A stretch of DNA of 64,000 nt from positions 108,502 to 172,501 of IMG/VR virus record IMGVR_UViG_3300005288_000001. The stretch is one strand, 5' to 3'. Of the stretch, positions 34,281-39,563 are shown in pieces. The position numbers were made by a program, and so were the translations under genes. How positions within the stretch are numbered: the first letter of the stretch is position 1; each line of letters begins with the position of its first letter. The notes beneath the pieces were generated by a model that was not told where the DNA came from, did no database searches, and worked only from the letters and a program-made list of their open reading frames with translations. The DNA comes from a virus.

Positions 34281-34863
34281 TAACATCGCCCAACTGTTAA
34301 AGAAGAATCACTATGAGCTGGCATCTATTCAAAGGAATAGTTCTATCTGGTTCGAAACTCAAGCATTCAAATTGCTGGATGTCAACGGAGTAGAAGCTAA
34401 ATCAGCGCTCCAGGGTGACGCCCGAAAGCTAAAGACTACGTTTGATTTGGGTTCAATGTACTTCTTCCTGTATGACGCGAAGCACAAAGACAAGCTCCCA
34501 TACTACGACATGTTTCCATTGGTGTTGCCATTCAGCGTGACGAAGAACGGTTTTGTTGGATTGAACCTCCACTACCTTCCTTACGACATGCGAATTCGCC
34601 TGCTATCAAAGCTACAAGAATTCCGTACCAGTAACTCGCTCACACCTCAAAGCAAACTGCGTTTTCAATGGGAAACGCTCCAGTCGGTCGCGCGCGGGAA
34701 GGGAACTAAAGCCTGCGTCAAGCAATACCTTGGTGACCACGTTGGTTCACCTTTCCGTCTTGTGCCACCGGATGATTGGGCTACCGCGTGTATGCTTCCG
34801 CTTGAACGTTTCTCGGGCAGCGACAAATTCCAAGTCTGGTCTGATTCTCTAAGAAAACTATAA
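34273..34863 (+). CDS. conserved T4-type protein next to gp4 (role unclear)
   Basis: This 196-residue protein has LPYYDMFPLVLPFSVTKNGF, VGLNLHYLPYDMRIRLLSKL and a C-terminal 'KACVKQYLGDHV...LPLERF' block. I recognise the pattern from T4-like phages, where similar proteins sit beside gp4 and have been linked to DNA ends or the baseplate, but I cannot fix its identity. In T4, gene 2 (DNA end protector) neighbours gene 4, so that is one candidate. Start overlaps gp4, and its TAA overlaps the gp54 ATG. Confidence 0.55.
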   Translation: MADNIAQLLKKNHYELASIQRNSSIWFETQAFKLLDVNGVEAKSALQGDARKLKTTFDLGSMYFFLYDAKHKDKLPYYDMFPLVLPFSVTKNGFVGLNLHYLPYDMRIRLLSKLQEFRTSNSLTPQSKLRFQWETLQSVARGKGTKACVKQYLGDHVGSPFRLVPPDDWATACMLPLERFSGSDKFQVWSDSLRKL

Positions 34864-36014
34864 TGTCACTAAAAGACTTCATCGCTGCGTCTCGCCTAAT
34901 GGGAATCGCGAAGCCTAACCGCTTCACGGTTTACTTCCAAGCACCTAACACCCTGGCGAATGCAGGACCGTTCGCACCAAACGCGATGCAAAACATCGCT
35001 CTCTATTGCAATCGTGCTGAACTGCCAGGCATCTCAGTATCCACCACTGCAATTCGAACCACCGGTGAAGTGATGAACATCGCCTACGATCGAAACTTCG
35101 AACCGTTCTCGCTAACGTTCTACGCAGACATTGGCATGAACGCAAAGTATTTCTTCGAAGAATGGATCAATTCGATTCAGGATCGAAACGATCGCACGTT
35201 TGCCTACTATGACGACTATACTATCCCTAAGATGGTCATCGACGTAGAAACCGTAAAGAACGAGCCAACGTATCGCGTGGAAATGTACAAGGTCTTCCCT
35301 AAGTCGGTCAGCGGAGTTCAGCTTGACTACGCGAACAATGGTCTAATGGAGATTACCGTCACCTTTGAATACCGCAACTGGAAGTCCAAACAAGTTGTCG
35401 GTGGAGCTGAAACATCGTGGAGTAGTGATAGCACAGGTTTCAAGGATCGTTTCACCAATATCCAAGGCGGTCTAAGTCTGGGATTGGGCAAGTTCAACTT
35501 CCAAGGAAGTACACTAAGTCAAGTCGCTGTTCTTGGTAAGTCAGTTCTTGGTGGTGTTATTGGTCAAACCCAAGTCGCCTTCAACTCACTATCGAGCAGT
35601 ATCTCAGGTCTGTCTAATCTTATCCCTGGTGGAATGAGCACCCCTGGAATCGTTAGTTCCATTACCGGAATGGCGTCGCAGGCTCGTGGTTACGCGAACC
35701 AAACAGGCAACATGGGAATTCAACTATCTACTCCTGCGGGTATCAATATGAGTTCGTCTACTTTGACGAGCATTGGTGGTATGCTAGGGAACTTGAATAC
35801 GTCCCTTGGACCGGCTGGAGCTATTAGTAGTTCTATCGCTAACTTCAACCCTTCGTCTACGGGAGCTATCGTGTCACAACTAGGAACTATGCAGGGTCAA
35901 TTGAATAGTATTGGCTCCGCACTTGGTTCCACAAACTCGGCGATCAACGCAGGTATCCTGGTTGCTTCGCTAGGATCTAATACTGGAGTAGCCCTTAATG
36001 GCCCAAGAGGATGA
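34863..36014 (+). CDS. 54: gp54-like baseplate tube initiator
   Basis: This 383-residue protein (T4 gp54 has 320) has a tube-fold core: FTVYFQAPNT near the start, then RNFEPFSLTFYADIGMNAKY, FFEEWINSIQDRNDRTF and ITVTFEYRNWK. Gp54 polymerises on gp48 and starts the tail tube. The C-terminal 180 residues are Ser/Gly-rich and flexible, longer than in T4. It overlaps the holin gene by 17 bp. Confidence 0.82.
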   Translation: MSLKDFIAASRLMGIAKPNRFTVYFQAPNTLANAGPFAPNAMQNIALYCNRAELPGISVSTTAIRTTGEVMNIAYDRNFEPFSLTFYADIGMNAKYFFEEWINSIQDRNDRTFAYYDDYTIPKMVIDVETVKNEPTYRVEMYKVFPKSVSGVQLDYANNGLMEITVTFEYRNWKSKQVVGGAETSWSSDSTGFKDRFTNIQGGLSLGLGKFNFQGSTLSQVAVLGKSVLGGVIGQTQVAFNSLSSSISGLSNLIPGGMSTPGIVSSITGMASQARGYANQTGNMGIQLSTPAGINMSSSTLTSIGGMLGNLNTSLGPAGAISSSIANFNPSSTGAIVSQLGTMQGQLNSIGSALGSTNSAINAGILVASLGSNTGVALNGPRG

Positions 36015-36405
36015 TAAGCTAGACAACCCAAAGTCTCAGCACTGGATGCGATCATACTGGCGTCCGCTTATGGCGATGCAGTATCTGATCGTTTGTATTT
36101 TTGACTTCGTGGTTGCACCGATTGTATGGACAGCGTTCCAGGCATATCACCACCAAGCACTTCTAACACAATGGAATCCAACAACCTTGGGTTCCGGGGG
36201 AACTTATCACCTAGCAATGGGTGCGGTTCTTGGCGTTGCTGCCTGGACCCGTTCACTGGATAAGCAAGATGATATGATGCGTGGAGCTTATATGCGTGGC
36301 CAAAGTGGTGCCGGCATGTATGGAGGTGGCGCTGGTTATATGCCGCCTCGTCAACAACCAATGGGAGACCCACCTCCACGTAAACCACTGCAAGGTATGG
36401 AATAA
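35998..36405 (+). CDS. three-TM-type holin
   Basis: This 135-residue protein has WMRSYWRPLMAMQYLIVCIF followed by DFVVAPI, and later GTYHLAMGAVLGVAAWTRSL. These are the conserved features of the GTA_holin_3TM family (holins first described for gene-transfer-agent release). Hydrophobic segments lie near residues 23-47 and 70-88, and the tail is rich in Gly, Met and Pro. Holins time lysis by opening the inner membrane. Here the gene lies inside the virion operon, far from the endolysin genes, and overlaps gp54. Confidence 0.8.
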   Translation: MAQEDDKLDNPKSQHWMRSYWRPLMAMQYLIVCIFDFVVAPIVWTAFQAYHHQALLTQWNPTTLGSGGTYHLAMGAVLGVAAWTRSLDKQDDMMRGAYMRGQSGAGMYGGGAGYMPPRQQPMGDPPPRKPLQGME

Positions 36406-36860
36406 TGACAGCACTAGATAAAAACTTGACTCAAATCTTTGACGTCGAACCTACAAAGATCGATGGTGAGTTGGTGGAAACACCTATTACGCCTATGGCA
36501 AATACGACGCCACCTGCGCCAGTCAATACTGACGATGCAGATATGGAAGCCGACTTCGAGAAGATGCGCCACAACCAAGAAGAGCTTATTCTCAAAGGTA
36601 AAATCGCCCTTGACTGCGCGCTGGACATCGTCCAACAATCTGATCAACCGCGCGCCATCGAAGTATTCTCTACTCTTCTTGGACAGCTATCTAAGATAAA
36701 CCAGGACGCGATGGACTTGCACGCAAAACGCCGTGACATTAAGAACGCTCGCCCTGAGTCTGAAGATGCTCCGAAGACCGTCAACAACAATGCTATCTTT
36801 GTTGGGACTACCTCGGAACTGAATAAGATGATTGAAAAGATGACAGGAACTAAACCCTAA
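36405..36860 (+). CDS. 16: gp16-like small terminase
   Basis: This 151-residue protein (T4 gp16 has 164) has a Pro-rich head, a central helical hairpin (EELILKGKIALDCALDIVQQ, then PRAIEVFSTLLGQLSKINQD) and a C-terminal NNNAIFVGTTSELNKMIEKM. These are characteristic of T4-type gp16, which forms rings and stimulates the large terminase. The large subunit gene is not next to it, unlike in T4. Confidence 0.88.
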   Translation: MTALDKNLTQIFDVEPTKIDGELVETPITPMANTTPPAPVNTDDADMEADFEKMRHNQEELILKGKIALDCALDIVQQSDQPRAIEVFSTLLGQLSKINQDAMDLHAKRRDIKNARPESEDAPKTVNNNAIFVGTTSELNKMIEKMTGTKP

Positions 36861-37564
36861 TGCTACCAAAGAAGTCTCCGACGATGTATGAACTGAAGGT
36901 GCCGTCAACCGGCGCCAAGATCAAATTTCGTCCCTATACGATCCGCGAAGAAAAACTGCTTATGTTGGCAGAGCAATCTGGCGAAATCGCAGTTATGGTT
37001 AACGCTCTCAAGGCAATCATCTCTGCATGTACCAACGAAAAAGTGAAGGTTGACGACCTAGCGGTCTTCGACCTAGAGTACATTATGGCCAAGCTGCGCT
37101 CAAAGTCGGTTGGGGAAACCGTGCGTCTGCAATTTGATTGCGAAGCCGACCCGAAGCATGATAAGGCAGTAGTTGATATGGACATGTCCAAGATCGAAGT
37201 TACTTTCACCGAAGGACACGATAAAGTCATCAAGTTGTATGACGACGTCGGTGTCATTATGCGTTATCCGAACATCGAGATGATGGAAGCCCTTGCAAAG
37301 ATCGAAGAAAACCCTGACGTTATCTTCGGTATCATTTATGATTGCATCGAAACCATCTTCGATAAGGAAGAGATGCACAAGGCCAATGAACAGAAGCCAG
37401 AAGAGATCGCCGAGTTTATCGACAATCTCGAGAAGGTTGAGTTCAAGAAGCTTGAAAACTTCTTCCTAACGATGCCAAAGTTTCATCACACGATTGAATA
37501 CAAGTGTCCAACGTGCGGCAAGGAACATAAGAAGTACGTAGCAGGGTTCGAGAATTTTTTCTAA
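36860..37564 (+). CDS. 26: gp26-like baseplate hub assembly protein
   Basis: This 234-residue protein (T4 gp26 has 208) starts with LKVPSTGAKIKFRPYTIREE, then KLLMLAEQSGE, the pattern of the T4 baseplate (gp26) family. It ends with a CPTCGKEH zinc-ribbon-like element and NFF before TAA. T4 gp26 is a hub assembly factor. The last codons form a slippery heptamer. In the -1 frame the reading continues for 61 codons, so a longer second product is likely. Confidence 0.85.
   Translation: MLPKKSPTMYELKVPSTGAKIKFRPYTIREEKLLMLAEQSGEIAVMVNALKAIISACTNEKVKVDDLAVFDLEYIMAKLRSKSVGETVRLQFDCEADPKHDKAVVDMDMSKIEVTFTEGHDKVIKLYDDVGVIMRYPNIEMMEALAKIEENPDVIFGIIYDCIETIFDKEEMHKANEQKPEEIAEFIDNLEKVEFKKLENFFLTMPKFHHTIEYKCPTCGKEHKKYVAGFENFF
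37555..37561 (+). promoter_or_regulatory. candidate -1 frameshift site T TTT TTC
   Basis: In the gp26 frame the codons read AAT TTT TTC TAA, so the heptamer T TTT TTC fits the X XXY YYZ rule and is immediately followed by the stop. A one-base slip back gives TTT TTT CTA ATA GCG and joins the downstream open frame. A short G/C-rich stretch (GCGCTCGCGC, 37567-37576) follows and could pair weakly. No long stem is obvious. Confidence 0.7.
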
Positions 37565-37746
37565 TAGCGCTCGCGCATGAAAATCTGTTCAACTTCTACA
37601 AGACCAACTTTTCGATGATTCACCATCACGAATGGAGTCTCACTGAACTAGAGGACATGCTGCCTTTCGAGCGCGAACTTTATGTAGACATGCTTTTGAA
37701 CCATCTCGAAGAAGAACGTCAAAAACTGCAGGCTAACAAACAATAA
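37561..37746 (+). CDS. frameshift extension of gp26 (61 codons)
   Basis: The -1 frame relative to gp26 is open from a TAA at 37528 to the TAA at 37744. The first ATG is at 37615, after a clearly protein-like stretch (ALAHENLFNFYKTNFSMIHH). The rest reads WSLTELEDMLPFERELYVDM, then LLNHLEEERQK, typical of C-terminal helices of tail-assembly proteins. The absence of a start before the conserved part argues for expression as a gp26 fusion, similar in logic to the gpG-gpGT chaperones of siphophages. Reinitiation at 37615 (43 codons) is the alternative. Confidence 0.72.
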   Translation, partial: LIALAHENLFNFYKTNFSMIHHHEWSLTELEDMLPFERELYVDMLLNHLEEERQKLQANKQ

Positions 37747-37751
37747 GAACT

Positions 37752-39563
37752 ATGGATAAGATTCTCAGCCGCCGCTCAAAGATCAAGGATTACACCGACC
37801 TCAACGCGGTTAATCCTGGACGCACTATGGGGATGTACGACAATACCTGGGGTGCAGGTATGTATGGTGCATTCTACAGCCCACGTAACACCCGTCGTTT
37901 CGGCCATGGTGAAACCGCATCTAACGACGAACGTGTCGAAAAGATGCAGGCAAAGAAGGTTCAAGAAACCCTGTCTAACTCCCGTGACTACCTGCAGGAA
38001 ATCAAGACTTCGCTTACAGAGAATCTGAAGAGTATCACCCGCAGTATCCTGGGTATTCAGAATAAGGAAGATAAGCATCGCGGCAAGGGTACGATCGGCG
38101 TTGAAGACCGCGATCAAATCCTCAAGACTATTCTGGGTCAAAAGGCATATGCCACGAGTTCGCAATACAAGCGTGCGGAAAGTATCAACGCTCGTGAAGA
38201 ACTGCTACACAAGTTCAGCAAGCGAGGTATCGCTGATACGCTGTTCGGAGCACCACAACCAGGCACCGCGCGTGGAGTTCAACGTGAATACGATGATGCT
38301 CTGAAGCAATACCAACGCGATCGTATGATGCTTCAAGGAAAGCAACTGATCGAAACGTATGGTTCCAAAAGCAAGGCTGAGAAGCAGATCGCAAAGGACT
38401 TCAAGCTTCAGCAAGATATCGGTCGTCAGATCAACGATACAAATAAGGAAGTAGAACGTCGCCGCAAGGCTGGGTGGACAGATGCCGACATCAACACTCC
38501 TGAAGCCGGGAAGATGATCGACAAGCTGAACAAACTGGTCGATCAATTCGCCAAGTACGACCCAACTAACACTGGACGTTTCCTGGAACGTGACGTAGAC
38601 GCAACGAAGAAGCCGAAGGATATGGTCTTGCCGACCGAACGCTTCCGCGCCAACCAAGCAGTCTACAAGGGTGACGTTCGTGAGGATAAGGTAGGTCCAG
38701 CACCGAAGGCTCTCCTACAATCGAAGGAAGAAGCAGACCACGAGGCTGAGGAAACGCACAAGAAGGATCAGGAAGAACAAGTCAAGCAAACTAACCTCCT
38801 AGATGATATCAAGGAAGCGTTGCTGAAGAACAAGCCAGTGGAAGGTTATAGCGACGGCAAGGCCGATCCTACAAGTCTGTTTGGTGGAATCATCAAGAGC
38901 CTATCAGCCTTGGCATCTGGTCTTATGACGATCGGAAGCACGCTACTATCTTCACTAGGTGGCCTTGGCCCAATTCTTGCCAGCTTGGGCGCTGTATTGG
39001 TACCGTTGGCCGCTGCCGCTGCGCTATTGGGCCTTGGTAAAGCAGAGAAAGAAAAGATCGAAGCCAATCCGAATGCTCCGGAATATGTGGATAATGCATA
39101 CGCGATGAAGCTACGTGGTGAGGCAACGTCCGTCACACAAGGCACCAAAATCAACCAACAAAAAGCGCTCCGTAATTTGGCGCCTGGAGTTGCCAAGGAA
39201 TTGCTTGAAAACGGACAGCAAGATGAGAATGGTTTGATCGACGGCTATACGATGGACCAACTAATGGATATGCGCGACGGTAAAAAGCCATCGCATATGT
39301 CTGAGGTGCCGTTGGCTAAGAAGGCGAAATTGGAAGCAGCCCAAATCAAGTCGGTTCCGGCACAGTCCGGCGCAAAGTTGACAGAGGCTTCTACTGCCAA
39401 CGCCGACGCAAAACGAGAATCGTCAAAGGCAGCTATCAATGTAGTTGCCCCAACTACGAATAACACATCGGTATCTACCTCTGCACCGCCAGCGCCAATG
39501 GGACCTGTACGAAGTACCGAGACTTCCATGGGCGACTATGTGAAACGTCGCTACGCGAACTAA
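37752..39563 (+). CDS. 29: tape-measure-like protein (gp29 position)
   Basis: This 603-residue protein (T4 gp29 has 590) is mostly helical and highly charged to about residue 370. It then has a hydrophobic Leu/Gly/Ala segment (SLSALASGLMTIGSTLLSSL, then GPILASLGAVLVPLAAAAAL) and a disordered C-terminus with NNTSVSTSAPPAP. Long helices plus a membrane-like block near the end are typical of tape measures. Synteny after gp26 also fits. Direct similarity to T4 gp29 is not evident by eye, so the number is positional. Confidence 0.65.
   Translation: MDKILSRRSKIKDYTDLNAVNPGRTMGMYDNTWGAGMYGAFYSPRNTRRFGHGETASNDERVEKMQAKKVQETLSNSRDYLQEIKTSLTENLKSITRSILGIQNKEDKHRGKGTIGVEDRDQILKTILGQKAYATSSQYKRAESINAREELLHKFSKRGIADTLFGAPQPGTARGVQREYDDALKQYQRDRMMLQGKQLIETYGSKSKAEKQIAKDFKLQQDIGRQINDTNKEVERRRKAGWTDADINTPEAGKMIDKLNKLVDQFAKYDPTNTGRFLERDVDATKKPKDMVLPTERFRANQAVYKGDVREDKVGPAPKALLQSKEEADHEAEETHKKDQEEQVKQTNLLDDIKEALLKNKPVEGYSDGKADPTSLFGGIIKSLSALASGLMTIGSTLLSSLGGLGPILASLGAVLVPLAAAAALLGLGKAEKEKIEANPNAPEYVDNAYAMKLRGEATSVTQGTKINQQKALRNLAPGVAKELLENGQQDENGLIDGYTMDQLMDMRDGKKPSHMSEVPLAKKAKLEAAQIKSVPAQSGAKLTEASTANADAKRESSKAAINVVAPTTNNTSVSTSAPPAPMGPVRSTETSMGDYVKRRYAN

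Follow-up and report, generated by a model that had tools for sequence, protein, structure and literature searches.

A conserved slippery heptamer and a probable −1 ribosomal frameshift from gp26 into gp51 in T4-type phages

The window, i.e., the whole 64-kb stretch of DNA that was analysed, is part of a 172.5-kb virus record carrying T4-type genes, and the gp26-gp51 features and the gene that follows them lie on its + strand. The gp26 gene (36860..37564; PF12322, E 1.5e-56; phrog_150, E 3.5e-61) encodes a zero-frame product of 234 aa, the proposed TAC-N. Its 3′ end reads GAG AAT TTT TTC TAA and contains a slippery heptamer of the X XXY YYZ type, T TTT TTC (37555..37561), in phase with the zero frame; the zero-frame stop codon, TAA (37562..37564), lies immediately 3′ of the heptamer. 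The −1 frame is open from 37561 to 37746 (61 codons and a stop codon), and after a slip it would read CTA ATA GCG ... TAA, giving a fused product of 295 aa, the proposed TAC-NC. The earliest ATG, GTG or TTG in the frame of this extension is the ATG at 37615, codon 19, which is 3′ of conserved residues, and no Shine-Dalgarno sequence was found upstream of the 43-aa ORF that begins there. The sequence-only reading had described a heptamer touching the stop codon, a protein-like −1 extension of 61 codons, and a conserved part that precedes any start codon; all three descriptions hold, and the extension belongs to a real protein family (see below).

The downstream gene (37752..39563; 603 aa) lies where, in relatives, gp26-gp51 is followed by the tape-measure/tail gene. 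It has no Pfam or PHROG assignment, and the gene in the matching position in HTVC008M is a “putative tail tape measure”. Upstream, the small terminase (gp16) gene (36405-36860) adjoins gp26, with a 1-base overlap with the gp26 start. The tail tube protein is encoded at 34863-36014 (383 aa); its tube homology stops near residue 214, and the remainder is a Ser/Gly/Thr-rich tail. The whole record has one copy of gp26, one copy of the extension, and no second long gene, i.e., a T4-style full-length gene 51 is absent. A single-protein scan of viral contigs found no close relatives, and a nucleotide search of phage records returned no match.

The family assigned to the extension is PHROG 634 (listed as phrog_634; E 5.8e-24), whose annotation is “baseplate hub assembly catalyst”, the gp51 family. 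With the extension as the query, tblastn found matches in 646 phage records, mostly from cyanophages. Several of these records, including cyanophages, label the extension gp51, with a start codon that varies from phage to phage; in others it is unannotated, and none of the records opened annotates the join between gp26 and the extension. Two phages with a separate gene 51, Aeromonas phage 25 and a T4-like coliphage, encode the protein in one frame of 249 aa. In Aeromonas phage 25, the N-terminal part of gp51 aligns with gp26 (hhalign E 2e-6), and the C-terminus aligns with the extension (hhalign E 1e-9), so that gp26 plus the extension corresponds to T4 gp51. In other words, where gene 51 is separate, T4-type gp51 consists of a gp26-like domain and the extension in one gene. 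Judged by these alignments, the extension is a homologue of the C-terminal part of gp51; the earlier suggestion that it may be a functional analogue of a missing gp51 is replaced by this relationship.

Conservation of the junction was assessed in a sample drawn from 160 loci on viral contigs, most of which were distinct, plus 24 phage loci that were annotated or listed. The sample kept comprised 150 non-redundant junctions, window included, with the extension in the −1 frame. A T TTT TTN heptamer is in phase at the end of gp26 in 149 of these 150 relatives, compared with 2/575 ends of other ORFs, 13/27,810 codons in the body of gp26, and 34/413 Phe-Phe pairs elsewhere. The distance from heptamer to stop codon ranges from 0 to 9 codons across the 149 relatives and is 0–1 codons in 139 of them, and the −1 frame is open for 55–69 codons in all 149. 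The sampled groups and hosts include Kyanoviridae as well as phages of Sinorhizobium, Rhizobium, Vibrio (KVP40-like), Aeromonas, Stenotrophomonas, Acidovorax, and Desulfovibrio. The conservation of both heptamer and frame order in related phages, which had been proposed as a check on the frameshift, was thus found across nearly the entire sample.

There are a few exceptions. Salmonella phage Vi01 retains the −1 frame in the absence of the heptamer, and two further Ackermannviridae-like loci have incomplete T runs. In this group (L016, L018, and L022), the extension is still in the −1 frame, but the gp26 end carries CCTTTTTC, AATTTTC, or ACTTTTC; to judge from these sequences, the slip site there is different or weaker. 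Synechococcus phage S-SCSM1 (L021, 1485-1530) has the heptamer, but its −1 frame stops after a few codons and its extension sits in the other frame; either the sequence contains an error or the frameshift has truly been lost. Lastly, the T4-like coliphage and Aeromonas phage 25 have two separate genes and no heptamer.

Whether the extension is translated from a start codon of its own can be judged from its earliest codons. A selection test was applied to codons 3–14 of the extension at 75 loci that have no ATG, GTG or TTG in extension codons 1–14. The synonymous share of single-base codon differences was 58% in the −1 frame, against 17% and 19% in the zero and third frames, respectively. Stop codons in the tested segment were absent from the −1 frame and occurred in the other two frames in 58 and 71 of the 75 loci. 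By this measure, the early segment of the extension is under purifying selection as a −1 frame protein before any start codon. On this evidence the start-less segment is translated, and the ribosomes that read it would have to come from gp26.

Two sequence elements, neither of them mentioned in the sequence-only reading, flank the heptamer in relatives. The upstream element, GAGG or GGAGG, occupies −15 to −10 relative to the heptamer and resembles a Shine-Dalgarno (SD) sequence. A 4-mer SD-like core is found in 128/149 relatives vs 413/5441 other gp26 windows. Almost every start in the extension is separated from the element by ~19 nt or more, too great a distance for initiation. By contrast, its spacing of ~10 nt upstream of the heptamer fits that of a stimulator of dnaX-type −1 frameshifting. 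The window has a weak counterpart, AGGG (37543..37546), with a pairing energy of −3.8 kcal/mol vs a mean of −6.3.

The downstream element is a predicted long-range RNA helix. Structure propensity beyond that of codon shuffles is highest at +12, and, across the family, +13 to +24 is complementary to +109 to +120. The family helix would begin 5–6 nt past the heptamer and close a loop of ~85 nt inside the extension. Strong duplexes were found in 44/96 loci (synonymous shuffles: mean 14.6, maximum 21), and at least 11 of the 12 pairs can form in 23/82 loci, compared with at most 13 in 500 partner shuffles. Pair counts were taken from all 82 in-register loci, not from a 48-row DNA alignment hand-picked from among them. 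In the window, the predicted 5′ arm (37567..37579) lies 5 nt 3′ of the heptamer and pairs with a predicted 3′ arm at 37656..37674. The arms form 13 bp interrupted by interior bulges, and their register differs from that of the family by two; GCGCTC (37567-37572) pairs with GAGCGC (37669-37674) in the predicted fold. The duplex energy is −18.8 kcal/mol. The minimum free energy fold of 37562-37690 has an energy of −31.7 kcal/mol (z −2.24), and the helix is its outermost stem. A 100-nt fold of the window gave no structure signal (z −0.5), and RNAalifold found no common structure in 60 loci over 80 nt, in both cases because the 3′ arm fell outside the folded region. There was no Rfam match at the frameshift site or the helix. 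In about half of the relatives, no strong long-range duplex passes the thresholds applied, and no local hairpin does so either. Three loci (L002, L047, and L150) have a strong local hairpin just 3′ of the heptamer (e.g., AGTATGGCTCATGA...TTGAGTCATACT) instead of the long-range helix.

We consider it very likely that ribosomes undergo a programmed −1 frameshift at T TTT TTC, so that one gene yields both gp26 and a gp26-gp51 fusion. The sequence-only reading had proposed such a frameshift, and the comparison of relatives, with its near-universal heptamer and selection on the −1 frame, strongly supports it. One competing explanation makes the extension (gp51) a small gene in its own right, translated either from a ribosome site that belongs to it or by ribosomes that terminate at the gp26 stop codon and reinitiate there. 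Several records do annotate gp51 separately, an ATG overlaps the gp26 stop codon in 14/149 relatives (e.g., KVP40-type phages), and the window has the internal ATG at 37615. However, the annotated starts fall at different codons in different phages, the heptamer is present even in phages with an early ATG, and the 75 relatives with no start in codons 1–14 nonetheless show −1 frame protein evolution there. The first start in the window is past the conserved residues with no Shine-Dalgarno sequence, and the SD-like element found in relatives is too distant for initiation at nearly all starts. A separate gene is, therefore, highly improbable. A little less probable still is transcriptional slippage, in which RNA polymerase would add or drop a U at the T run, generating some mRNAs in which gp26 and the extension form one continuous frame. 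Slippage of this kind would be favored by the 48/149 relatives whose runs are 7 or 8 T long, but the run is only 6 T long in the other 101, the window among them. Moreover, the T run starts at the third codon position in 149/149 relatives, a phase that matters for ribosomal and not for transcriptional slippage, whereas other runs of at least 6 T in ORFs occur in all phases. The SD-like element and the RNA helix are also positioned as in ribosomal frameshifting.

A further question is whether the two flanking elements are by-products of conserved protein motifs rather than frameshift stimulators. Both do lie under conserved residues (Leu-Glu-Gly before the heptamer; Leu-Ser-His and Trp-Glu-Arg-Glu in the extension), and the protein sequence alone predicts some pairing, with partner-shuffled loci averaging 7 near-complete helices. 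Synonymous codon choice argues against this explanation at both sites. At the conserved Glu-Gly of the upstream element, GAG rather than GAA precedes Gly in 56/88 cases vs 129/659 elsewhere (p 1e-16), and anti-SD pairing is stronger in relatives than in synonymous shuffles (z about −14). In the helix, a Leu codon (CTC/CTT) covaries with a Glu codon (GAG/GAA; counts of 21, 5 / 2, 18; p 3e-6), and the two position pairs with the greatest excess of Watson-Crick pairing among 820 third-position pairs, 14-119 and 17-116, are both within the helix. Relatedness alone does not single out the helix pairs, because all 820 pairs share one tree. We regard a by-product origin as unlikely, and we infer a stimulatory role for both RNA elements.

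With a programmed frameshift as the preferred reading, the ribosome would slip by −1 on T TTT TTC at the end of gp26, with the tRNA-Phe pair moving from UUU UUC to re-pair on UUU UUU. In the family, the SD-like element ~10 nt upstream probably aids the slip by pairing with 16S rRNA, and an RNA helix starting 5–6 nt downstream probably does so too. There would be two products: abundant gp26 (TAC-N) and a minority of gp26-gp51 fusion (TAC-NC). The comparative data show the sequence anatomy, its conservation, selection on the −1 frame, and helix covariation; from them we infer the slippage itself, its rate, and the chaperone function. The predicted short and long products have a common N-terminal domain, as in the TAC-N / TAC-NC architecture, and the 603-aa gene on the 3′ side, though it has no family match, is in a fitting position. 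By analogy, gp26 and gp26-gp51 would fit a tail assembly chaperone (TAC) pair like lambda G and GT. In bacteriophage lambda, −1 frameshifting gives rise to gpGT alongside gpG, with G as the partner of the tape measure and T as that of the tail tube protein (PMC5009743). The likeness extends to a slip near the gene end, upstream of the tape-measure region, and, in lambda, a long form made in small amounts connects the tape measure with the tail tube protein (PMC5009743). Correspondingly, the N part of the proposed pair would cover the tape measure, while tail tube protein would be brought in by the gp51 part. Unlike the lambda system, the slip site here is T TTT TTC, the tail is of the contractile T4 type, and there are SD-like and long-range RNA elements. 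In addition, gp26 has no detectable similarity, in sequence or solved structure, to known TAC structures: its AlphaFold2 model (pLDDT 91.7) gave Foldseek matches to gp26-type proteins only, and no solved structure in the PDB, TAC folds included, was matched by sequence profile or Foldseek.

The tail assembly chaperones of T4-like phages were reportedly described in 2022 by Vladimirov, Gautam and Davidson. Later papers cite that study for poly-T −1 frameshift signals in T4-like TAC-N genes (PMC12846349) and for T4-like phages with two separate genes, one short and one long (PMC10885494). The statement in the sequence-only reading that such a frameshift is not established for T4-type gp26 was, therefore, only partly right. 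The protein families of the T4-type gp26/gp51 chaperones are identical to those described here; the T4-like coliphage and Aeromonas phage 25 differ in using two genes rather than one gene and a frameshift. Another poly-T system is that of the Pakpunavirus (Vandenendeviridae) phage Adele, in which TAC-N ends in a conserved poly-T motif that serves for −1 frameshifting, with the −1 frame open in all genomes (PMC12846349). Adele shares the −1 slip on poly-T with the phages described here, but its motif is GTTTTT and it belongs to a different phage family, and the passages on it note no SD element or long-range helix.

The signal layout resembles that of E. coli dnaX, in which a −1 cassette consists of an upstream SD-like element, an X XXY YYZ heptamer, and an RNA stem a few bases downstream (PMC3711429). 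The three-part layout is common to both systems. However, dnaX has A AAA AAG and a local hairpin, whereas here the heptamer is U UUU UUY and, in many loci, the helix closes a loop of ~85 nt; furthermore, frameshifting here gives the longer product, unlike in dnaX. A literature search that covered few subscription journals found no description of an SD-like element or long-range helix in T4-type phages. The kind of frameshift is known, and the combination of an SD-like element with a long-range helix appears to be a new variant.

If the frameshift occurs as proposed, what is called gp51 in cyanophages and many of their relatives is the end that frameshifting adds to gp26; it is usually annotated as a small gene of its own with an arbitrary start, or omitted. 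The RNA signal, which is testable and for which compensatory changes are predicted, may determine the proportion of one chaperone to the other. We lean toward a scenario in which most T4-type phages other than T4 express their tail assembly chaperones from a dnaX-like three-part frameshift cassette with a long-range helix, and T4 and its closest kin later switched to two genes, which would give a clear direction to T4’s route to two genes.
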